DNA of 39,982 nt from Rhodospirillales bacterium. GTDB lineage: Bacteria > Pseudomonadota > Alphaproteobacteria > Kiloniellales > JAKSDN01. Position 1 is the first letter of the stretch, and every line of letters starts with the position of its first letter. Where the stretch lies: NCBI GenBank assembly GCA_029859805.1, contig JAOUCL010000010.1, positions 1-39,982 on the forward strand, in the 5' to 3' direction. A program made the translations under genes and the position numbers. Positions 25,437-33,819 of the stretch are shown one piece after another. The notes under the pieces are model-generated. The model searched no databases. It was not told the DNA's origin and saw nothing but the letters and a program-made list of their open reading frames with translations.

Positions 25437-26318
25437 TCAGGCCTTTTTCGCCTTGTCCTCGGCGGCCTCCGTTTCGGCCGGCGCCTCCTCAGCAGCAGGC
25501 TCCTCGGCCGGGGCTTCCTCGGCAGGCGCCGCTTCGGCGGCAGCTTCCTCGGCCGGAGCTTCCTCCGCAGCAGGCTCCTCGGCCGGAACCTCCTCGGCAG
25601 GCGCTGCTTCGGCGGCGGGTTCCTCGGCCGGAGCCTCTTCCGCCGCAGGCACCTCGGCCGGGACCTCCTCGGCAGGCGCTGCTTTGGCGGCGGGTTCCTC
25701 GGCCGGAGCCTCTTCCGCCGCAGGCTCCTCGGCCGGGGCCTCCTCCGCAGGCGCCGCTTCGGCGGCAGATTCCTCGGCCGGCGCCTCTTCCGCCGCAGGC
25801 TCCTCGGCCGGGGCCTCCTCCGCAGGCGCCGCTTCGGCGGCAGATTCCTCGGCCGGCGCCTCTTCCGCCGCAGGCTCCGCGGCCGGGGCCTCCTCGGCAG
25901 GCGCCGCTTCGGCGGCGGGTTCCTCGGCCGGTGCCTCTTCGGCAACCGCAGCCTCCACAGCAGGTGCCGCCGCGGCCGCCTCCTTGGCCTCCGCGCGCTC
26001 CTTCAAGCGCTCGAGCGTCTTTGCCCTGGGCTGGCTCTTCTTGGTTTGCTCCGGGATCGCCGGCATCTGGATGATCTCGGCCTGGCCCAGGAAGCGGGCC
26101 ACCCGGTCGCTCGGCCGGGCGCCGACCGAGACCCAGTGCCTGGCGCGCTCCTCGTTCAGGCTCAGACGCTCCGGGTGGTCCTTGGGCACCATCGGATTGT
26201 AGGTGCCGATCTTCTCGATGAAGCGGCCGTCGCGGGGGCTGCGCGAATCGGCCACCACGATACGGTAGAAGGGGCGCTTCTTGGCGCCGCCGCGGGCCAG
26301 TCGGATTCTCAAAGACAT
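25437..26318 (-). CDS. rpsP: 30S ribosomal protein S16 with long repetitive acidic tail
   Basis: Residues 1-85 are an ordinary S16 ([46 protein letters not shown]). The protein then continues to 293 residues, over three times the usual 80-90. After a basic linker (about 95-115) come six 25-residue units (residues 124-273) of the pattern [10 protein letters not shown] plus 15 similar residues, rich in Ala, Glu and Pro, then a partial unit and a Lys-rich end. Extended S16 tails occur in some alphaproteobacteria; this one is unusually long and regular. Function of the tail is unknown. The gene lies 52 bases after ffh. Confidence 0.95.
25470..25949 (-). repeat. 75-bp tandem repeats inside rpsP
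   Basis: About 6.4 copies of a 75-base unit encode the 25-residue S16 tail repeat. The copies beginning at 25711 and 25786 are nearly identical over their full length, and a third begins at 25861 with few changes, so expansion or slippage has been recent. Copies at both ends are more diverged. The unit is an exact multiple of three, so copy-number change keeps the frame. Confidence 0.9.
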
Positions 26319-28734: not shown

Positions 28735-28902
28735 GGCACACCCCCGGTCGGAATTGATCCAGGGTGCCAGCCTGCCGGGAAAAGCAAGCTGCTTTCGGGT
28801 CATTCTGTGTCAGGAATGAGGCGCGCCAGGGTCGGCGGCCACCGGGCCGGCCCGGGTCTATCAGGGTTCTTCCGCACCGCGCAGAAGCGCGTCGGCTACC
28901 GG

Positions 28903-29181
28903 TCAGTTACGGCAGTTCGCGGTCTGGCGGTTGTAGAAGTAGTCGTTCGCGATCTCGGCCGGGTCCACGGGCTCGGTCAACATCTCGGCCGCCATCTTCC
29001 CGTACTTGAGCGCATGGCGCATGAACACGTAGTTGGTCGCCAGATCGACAGAGGGCTCCTCATGCCCGCAGGTCGAACAGGTGACCGTCGTCCCCAAATC
29101 CTTCACCACGAAGGAGTGGCATGCACCCTCCGCGGTGCACTCCACCAGATATCCTTCGGGCCGCTTGCCTATGATGATCAT
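28903..29181 (-). CDS. Cys-rich small protein, possible zinc ribbon (92 aa)
   Basis: The ATG at 29181 follows GGAGAAGAG and overlaps the stop of a 45-codon upstream gene as ATGA. The protein (MIIIGKRPEGYLVE...) holds two cysteine pairs that could bind zinc, ECTAEGACH and TCSTCGHEEP, about 17 residues apart. A helical second half (VFMRHALKYGKMAAEML, NDYFYNRQ) follows, then a last Cys near the end. There is no signal peptide. No family is recognised. The upstream region contains two CtrA-type motifs, so cell-cycle-linked control is a possibility. Confidence 0.75.
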   Translation of the reverse strand: MIIIGKRPEGYLVECTAEGACHSFVVKDLGTTVTCSTCGHEEPSVDLATNYVFMRHALKYGKMAAEMLTEPVDPAEIANDYFYNRQTANCRN

Positions 29182-29315
29182 GTCTCTTCTCCGATGATCG
29201 GCAGGAGATCGAGCGCAGCGACCATGAGAACCGCCATGATGCCGGCCGCCGGCGCGCATTCCTGGACCGTCCCTCCGATCCTGTCCTGCGCGGGCCTGGC
29301 ACATAGCGCGGTCAT
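29178..29315 (-). CDS. 45-aa membrane-like peptide coupled to the zinc-ribbon-like gene
   Basis: This short gene begins at an ATG at 29315, 6 bases after a perfect AGGAGG, and its TGA overlaps the next gene's ATG as ATGA. These two features support real translation. The peptide starts MTALCARPAQDRIGG. Residues 23-41 are a hydrophobic run (AAGIMAVLMVAALDLLPII), enough for one short membrane helix, followed by GEET. It could be a small membrane protein, or a leader peptide whose translation delivers ribosomes to the downstream gene. No family is recognised. Confidence 0.55.
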   Translation of the reverse strand: MTALCARPAQDRIGGTVQECAPAAGIMAVLMVAALDLLPIIGEET

Positions 29316-29368
29316 CGGCCGCCTCCTGTGGTGAATGTTTCTTATTGATTGCTGGGACTAACTGTAAC

Positions 29369-29383
29369 TTAATAAAGTATTAA
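29369..29383. promoter_or_regulatory. CtrA-type site 1 (TTAA-N7-TTAA)
   Basis: TTAA, seven bases (TAAAGTA), TTAA: an exact match to the core CtrA recognition motif. It lies 54 bases upstream of the 45-codon gene's start, where a promoter-binding regulator would act. Confidence 0.5.
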
Positions 29384-29442
29384 TCTCAATAAAAACTTAA
29401 TAACAATTTGGGTAAAATATTATTTATTAACTATATGGCATT

Positions 29443-29457
29443 TTAATATATCGTTAA
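29443..29457 (+). promoter_or_regulatory. CtrA-type site 2 (TTAA-N7-TTAACC)
   Basis: TTAA, seven bases (TATATCG), TTAA followed by CC: a match to the fuller consensus TTAA-N7-TTAAC on the plus strand. It is 74 bases from site 1. Confidence 0.55.
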
Positions 29458-29655
29458 CCTTGTTTGTCCCGCGTGCGGGGTGATTTTTACTAGCCGTGGG
29501 ACGTTCGGCATGACCTTGCCAGCGGAAAAGGCGCGCCGGCGATCGAAGGTAGGTGCGCGGCGGGATCCGGCATCGGCGGTGCCCGGCCTTCCGTCGCCCG
29601 CGCGCCGGCCCAGCCATCTGGACTTGCCCCCCCGCACGGCCCTATAACCCGGCCC

Positions 29656-30489
29656 ATGCAGGAACGCGCCTTCATCAAGATGCACGGCCTCGGCAACGAC
29701 TTCGTCGTGATCGACGCGCGCCGGGAGCCTTTCGACCTGGACGACGCGCAGGCACGGACGATCGCCGACCGGCGGCTTGGGGTCGGCTGCGACCAGCTGA
29801 TCGTCATGGAGCCGGCGGCCAGCAGCACGGCCGACGTCTTCATGCGCATCCGCAACGCCGACGGCGGCGAGGTCGAGGCCTGCGGCAACGCCACGCGCTG
29901 CGTCGCCGCCCTGCTCATGGCCGAGCGCGGCGGCGAACGCTGCACCGTCGAGACCCGGGCCGGCCTGCTCGAGGCGAAGCCCGCCGGACCCGACCGGATC
30001 GCGGTCGACATGGGCGAAGCGCGGCTGGGCTGGGGCGACATCCCGCTGGCGCGCGAGATGGACACGCTGCACCTGGGGCTGTCCGCGGACGGCCTGTCGG
30101 ACCCGGTGGCGGTCAATATCGGCAACCCGCACGCCGTCTTTTTCGTTGACGATGCGGAGGCGGTCGACCTGACCGGCCTGGGTCCACGCCTGGAGCACGA
30201 TCCGCTGTTCCCTGAGCGCGCCAACATCGGCGTCGCGCAGGTAAGCGGAGCCGACCGGCTGCGCCTGCGCGTCTGGGAGCGCGGCGTGGGGATCACTCGC
30301 GCCTGCGGGACCGGCGCCTGCGCCGCCGCCGTGGCGGCCCACCGCCGCGGGCTGTCGGGACGCAAGGTCGAGGTGATGCTGGACGGCGGTTCGCTGCTCC
30401 TCGAGTGGCGCGAGGACGGCCACGTCGTCATGACCGGCCCCGTCGCGACCTCGTTCCGCGGCGTGTTGAATGGCGGCCTCCTGCCATGA
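29656..30489 (+). CDS. dapF: diaminopimelate epimerase
   Basis: The 277-residue enzyme converts L,L- to meso-diaminopimelate for lysine and peptidoglycan. Both catalytic cysteines are present: Cys76 in EACGNATRC and Cys217 in [11 protein letters not shown]. The N-terminus [15 protein letters not shown] is diagnostic. No clear Shine-Dalgarno precedes the ATG. The stop overlaps the start of mtaB as ATGA, so the dapF-mtaB-ftsY genes form a tightly coupled operon. Confidence 0.97.
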
Positions 30490-33776: not shown

Positions 33777-33819
33777 GTTAACAGTCTTCGTTAACGATGG
33801 CTAATACCCCGTTTACACT
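33777..33819 (+). promoter_or_regulatory. promoter with paired GTTAAC motifs before the small secreted protein
   Basis: A -35-like TTAACG (33791-33796) and -10 TACACT (33814-33819) are spaced by 17 bases. Two GTTAAC palindromes lie at 33777-33782 and 33790-33795, the second overlapping the -35. The TTAA cores are 9 bases apart, not the 7 of a full CtrA site, so CtrA is not claimed. Confidence 0.4.

Follow-up and report, generated by a model that had tools for sequence, protein, structure and literature searches.

An AT-rich island with two exact TTAA-N7-TTAA motifs as the probable CtrA-controlled regulatory region of a small operon in a Kiloniellales-type alphaproteobacterium

The window (the whole stretch of 39,982 bases that was analysed) belongs to the genome of a Kiloniellales-type alphaproteobacterium (5.36 Mb, 550 contigs), and its most AT-rich place is an island between a pair of minus-strand small ORFs and the plus-strand dapF gene (Table 1). 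The original prediction counted 19 G or C letters among the 100 bases of this island, which is exact on recount; the lowest count for a 100-base stretch at more than 200 bases from the island is 34. The island holds 6 of the 17 TTAA words of the window. Two exact TTAA-N7-TTAA motifs, 74 bases apart from start to start, had been described here, with the second one running on into CC, and both points are confirmed. These are the only two copies in the window, and they are located in the promoter region, 53 and 127 bases ahead of the ATG of the 45-codon ORF. The adjacent uncharacterised genes of 45 and 92 codons are also as described; they are encoded on the minus strand and overlap at ATGA, where the start of the 92-codon gene overlaps the stop of the 45-codon ORF. 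A search of the region 28800-29800 with Rfam (E up to 1) gives no match to an RNA element.

Table 1. Features of the AT-rich island and its neighbourhood (positions in the window; G001 and G002 are the two other genomes of the genus).
Feature	Position	Strand	Remarks
92-codon gene, putative zinc-binding small protein	28903-29181	-	C15, C35 and C38 invariant in 12 aligned homologues
45-codon ORF	29178-29315	-	AGGAGG before ATG; no family in Pfam, NCBIfam or PHROGs
AT-rich island, six TTAA words	29361-29460		19/100 G/C; kept in G001 and G002
Candidate proximal promoter, TTGAGA (29389-29384)-17-TACAGT (29366-29361)	29361-29389	-	consensus scan only
CtrA-type site 1, TTAATACTTTATTAA	29369-29383	-	weak flanks, rank 47/52
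Candidate distal promoter, TTAACG (29457-29452)-16-TATAGT (29435-29430)	29430-29457	-	consensus scan only
CtrA-type site 2, TTAACGATATATTAA	29443-29457	-	GG precedes (TTAACC on the plus strand); flank rank 8/52; half-sites invariant in three genomes
Terminator-like hairpin between island and dapF	29464-29483	+	in window and G001, absent in G002
dapF, divergent neighbour	29656-30489	+	DAP_epimerase (Pfam); judged not the target

Codons 1-16 of the 45-codon ORF are identical in the three genomes of the genus, and 15 of the remaining 29 codons vary, mostly with a change of the amino acid. Because the first 16 codons are invariant and the rest is variable, this ORF may be more a leader than a protein. 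Purifying selection acts on the 92-codon gene (dN/dS 0.12-0.31), and its family is patchy, with members in 14 out of 61 genomes from the order; its two nearest records are labelled uncultured Kiloniellales bacterium. No family is found for the 92-residue protein in NCBIfam or PHROGs, and in Pfam the matches are sub-threshold only. The comparison of its profile with PDB sequences gives a best E value of 0.005 (TIF1-beta, 30 positions), and the fold search with its AlphaFold2 model (pLDDT 77, about 90 in the core) has no hit below E 1.4; an RNA polymerase I subunit and a RING2 domain head the list. From the cysteines it can be guessed that the protein might be a small zinc-binding regulator or adaptor. 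Around the island, the most conserved block is 29276-29355, where 1 of 80 columns varies among the three genomes, compared with 16 of 80 in 29196-29275; this block covers the 5' leader, the Shine-Dalgarno sequence and the first codons of the 45-codon ORF. Elsewhere in the window, an ORF of 293 codons at 25437-26318, ribosomal protein S16-like when read by eye from its start, is much longer than S16 usually is, and its opposite strand reads as near-repeats.

CtrA is an OmpR-type response regulator and a master switch of alphaproteobacteria, and the assignment of the two motifs to it would not stand in a genome lacking ctrA. A CtrA equivalog is encoded in the window genome (NF045991 of NCBIfam, 430 bits for a cut-off of 350). 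A second CtrA-like response regulator (G000:C161:17358-18023, L019), which at 320 bits stays below this cut-off, is 56% identical to Caulobacter CtrA. With respect to auto-regulation of ctrA, the 600 bp upstream of this gene have one-mismatch pairs only and no exact site. Across the window genome, TTAA words are paired at the N7 spacing in 65 places and at spacings 7-9 in 89 places, which leaves 24 for N8 and N9 together and makes N7 about five times commoner than N8 or N9. In G001 the corresponding numbers are 57 for N7 and 25 for N8 and N9 (82 for spacings 7-9), and the reversed control word AATT has no spacing preference in the window genome (23 places for N7, 58 for N7-9). Close N7 pairs in AT-rich intergenic DNA are also seen elsewhere (L008, 1501/1534; L090, 1567/1638; L081, 4626/4637), and the 15-mer at L081 4626 is identical to site 2. 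The window also has a TTAA-N9-TTAA at 33778-33794, which is intergenic and letter-for-letter the same in G001.

The surroundings of 52 of the 65 N7 sites were examined, namely the two of the window and 50 other listed places of the genome. A gene starts outward within 300 bp at 42 of these 50 listed sites and at 6 of 11 N8/N9 pairs, which is a weak contrast (two of the 11 pairs share a TTAA with an N7 site), and the median distance from an N7 site to a gene start is 130 bases. The gene caller places all 50 listed N7 sites between genes, and it does the same for 11 of the 11 N8/N9 pairs, so that the intergenic location proves nothing and was rejected as an argument. A TATAAT-like hexamer (at least 4 matches) peaks at 27 bases from the site start, where it occurs in 12 of 56 gene-facing views (from sites with a gene within 300 bp; 40 offsets scanned) versus 3 of 43 other views, and this peak is reached by none of 2000 shuffles and none of 2000 rotations. 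With this spacing the site is centred on the -35 element, as described for most CtrA-induced promoters of Caulobacter (PMC11264516). Among the neighbours, scanned with Pfam for 50 of the 52 genes (two short ones of 42 and 50 aa, L098, were left out), a raw count of 16 belongs to flagellum, Flp pilus, cell-wall/division, cytoskeleton or signalling families or to DUF2336: FliX, FlaG, Flp pilin (two), MraZ, bactofilin, PilZ, receiver, histidine kinase, CHASE, GGDEF, PAS, SPOR, cell-wall hydrolase and DUF2336 (two). Gene classes of this kind are members of the CtrA regulon in other organisms. Signal transduction is among the most enriched categories in a comparative study (PMC2877005). As judged from the spacing preference, the fixed -10 distance and the neighbour genes, TTAA-N7-TTAA is a working CtrA motif in this genome.

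It had been proposed to see whether the two sites rank among flagellar and division targets, and this is the case for site 2 and not for site 1. Site 2 has the TTAACC flank preferred by the other 50 sites, and its rank (8 of 52) is near those of the fliX/flaG, mraZ and bactofilin sites. Site 1 (rank 47 on the same flank matrix) is found beside two Flp pilin sites (ranks 48 and 50).

Both sites and the island are retained in the two other genomes of the genus. When the three genomes are aligned, none of the 16 half-site columns and 3 of the 14 spacer columns vary, and all six TTAA words are unchanged, including the two unpaired ones; the probability of seeing no change among A/T columns is 0.03 over the 24 TTAA columns and 0.12 for the 16 paired columns. 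On the scale of the genome, a kept counterpart in the window genome is found for 17 of 32 N7 places and 5 of 18 N8/N9 places of G001. This comparison took in 52 of the 65 N7 and 12 of the 24 N8/N9 places of the window genome, such that misses may be places outside the comparison, and after correction for these shares the kept rates are about 0.66 (N7) and 0.56 (N8/N9). Since these corrected rates are close, conservation at the level of the genus says little, and the retention is weak evidence for CtrA sites. The concern that the motifs may not be conserved in relatives has a divided answer: they are kept within the genus, but outside it an exact N7 site occurs at 0 of 12 places upstream of homologues of the 92-codon gene (450-600 bp examined) and in 0 of 27 regions upstream of dapF (500 bp each, one cut to 382; dapF is matched in 51 genomes beyond the genus, and 27 of them were used). 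AT-rich islands, having 4-11 G/C per 60 bases (8 in the window), are nevertheless present at 5 of these 12 places, one of them in G059, and four of the five islands lie ahead of a small ORF (about 64 codons), which in turn precedes the homologue of the 92-codon gene. The loci L024, L025, L027 and L028 belong to four genomes of a different family; there, this ORF comes with a 150-base island of down to 4 G/C in 60. As these islands are without exact N7 sites, AT-richness itself may be what is needed at the homologues of the 92-codon gene, and the island may be older than the CtrA sites or may have arisen more than once.

It is conceivable, although unlikely, that the island is an AT-rich promoter or a silencing region for MucR/Ros (H-NS-like) proteins, with TTAA words that simply reflect its composition and T-A steps and with no role for CtrA. 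The window genome has four MucR/Ros genes above the Pfam cut-off, for proteins of the MucR family about five AT-rich bases that include a T-A step are sufficient (PMC5693944), and the island offers such DNA, with 19 T-A steps in its 100 bases. The homologues behind islands without exact N7 sites (G059 and the four genomes of the other family) and the equal conservation of all six TTAA words are also in agreement with this possibility. However, the T-A steps are no more than the composition gives (16.4 expected, P 0.20), whereas TTAA words (6 versus 2.65 expected, P 0.028) and N7 pairs (2 versus 0.06 expected, P 0.0007) are enriched. Control by CtrA and binding of MucR are not mutually exclusive, as Caulobacter has promoters common to both regulators (PMC4241560).

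That both sites are chance pairs in AT-rich DNA, marking nothing, is quite improbable. The 24 N8 and N9 pairs of the genome imply that roughly 12 of the 65 N7 places may be background, and the weakly informative retention in the genus leaves room for this explanation; the preferred CC flank of site 2 argues against it, as does the rarity of two pairs in 100 bases at the composition of the island (P 0.001-0.003). Shuffles of the whole window give no TTAA-N7-TTAA match. In shuffles preserving the mono- or dinucleotide composition of the island itself (20,000 per setting), 0.06-0.08 N7 pairs are expected per 100 bp, and at least two pairs are obtained with P 0.0025 (mononucleotide) or 0.0033 (dinucleotide); for a stretch of 140 bp, P is 0.001-0.003. 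Among shuffles with five or more TTAA words, about 0.8-1.7% have two or more pairs (31 of 1833, 47 of 2707, 13 of 1540 and 54 of 4804), and six TTAA words placed at random form two pairs at the N7 spacing in 2.4% of the trials. From these shuffle and placement results, the site pair is moderately above chance, even in DNA as AT-rich as this. The objection that random AT-rich regions would look similar largely fails in view of the genome-wide N7 preference and the rare occurrence of the pair in the island shuffles.

Promoter-like hexamer pairs in the region are found on the minus strand only, in all three genomes. The -35 hexamer of the distal candidate is the upstream half-site of site 2, with TTAACA-17-TATAGT in G001 and G002, and site 1 is within the spacer of the proximal candidate, whose -10 hexamer reads TACAAT in these two genomes. 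Both candidates recur in G001 and G002 at 10 of 12 consensus positions; a third minus-strand match, TTAAAA-16-AATAAT, is seen in the window only. A good -10 hexamer at the dominant distance of 27 bases is absent for both sites on both strands (four combinations), the best one having 4 of 6 matches (CTTAAT, plus strand from site 1), and on the minus strand of site 2 TATAGT is at 22 bases from the site start. The 27-base -10 hexamer is also missing in 44 of the 56 other gene-facing views, and a -35-centred site with the -10 element at the usual distance is typical of CtrA-activated targets but not required of all. The minus-strand promoter matches, the hairpin and the dapF regions without a site make the minus-strand pair a likelier target than dapF. 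That the sites would instead act on dapF, together with the mtaB-like and ftsY genes that follow it, for which the 198 bases between the end of site 2 and the dapF start could speak when compared with the genome-wide median, is highly implausible. The promoter-like matches are all on the other strand, the terminator-like hairpin intervenes in G001 as in the window, though it is missing from G002, 0 of the 27 examined dapF regions outside the genus have a site, and the TATAAC that lies 7 bases ahead of the dapF ATG would fit a separate promoter for this gene.

The island is thus probably the regulatory region of the minus-strand 45/92-codon operon, which would be a member of the CtrA regulon at the level of the genus, and it is most likely a CtrA-controlled, possibly MucR-silenced promoter of this operon and not of dapF. 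The motif, the N7 preference and -10 geometry of the genome, the ctrA gene and the retention in the genus are direct results of the computation, and together with the rarity of the pair they make the proposed regulon membership of the small-gene pair likely; the lack of a -10 hexamer at the dominant distance, the weak flanks of site 1 and the absence of sites outside the genus count against it. Phosphorylated CtrA (CtrA~P) would bind at site 2 with good likelihood and, less probably, at site 1. The -35 element of the sigma-70-like TTAAC(G/A)-16/17-TATAGT promoter is overlapped by site 2, and therefore activation would be likelier there, whereas site 1 sits in the spacer of 17 bases of TTGAGA-17-TACA(G/A)T, and CtrA~P bound in this place would sooner block the polymerase than activate transcription. 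MucR/Ros silencers would probably also bind or coat the surrounding AT-rich DNA with its many T-A steps. A two-promoter switch, in which CtrA~P would turn the distal promoter on (site 2 as -35) and the proximal one off (site 1 in the spacer) and would thereby swap the transcript start of the conserved operon of the putative zinc-binding small protein, is a doubtful extension of CtrA control; if true, it would be a clean regulatory rewiring on a shared silenced island, as homologous genes in other genera of the order have an AT-rich island and no CtrA sites.

The 15-base palindromic motif, the CtrA equivalog and the genome-wide -10 element at 27 bases are shared with the CtrA-activated promoters of Caulobacter crescentus; unlike in these, the -10 hexamers of the island are off the dominant distance, the candidate for site 2 being 5 bases closer. 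As in the Caulobacter pilA promoter, there is more than one CtrA-type site upstream of a gene for a small protein. PMC11264516 describes several CtrA sites for pilA, both inducing and repressing, and in that promoter they are four degenerate sites with site 1 at -35, whereas the island has two exact sites 74 bases apart. The Caulobacter ctrA P1/P2 promoters (PMC11264516) resemble the island in that one candidate promoter would be activated and the second blocked; in Caulobacter it is P1 that is repressed and P2, further downstream, that is activated, and in the island, with its candidate starts, this order would be reversed. The AT-rich promoter DNA and the presence of both mucR and ctrA also recall the MucR/Ros-silenced, CtrA-activated G1 promoters such as hvyA (PMC4241560).

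The CtrA switch is well known, and only this target is new. For an uncultured Kiloniellales-type genus, the analysis gives sequence-level evidence that TTAA-N7-TTAA is used as a CtrA signal with the -35 geometry, and it names a predicted regulon, to which the island itself contributes a single predicted target, the small uncharacterised operon. The 92-codon-gene family, whose members in two families of the order are preceded by AT-rich islands, would be a reasonable subject for work on CtrA and MucR in a cultivated relative.
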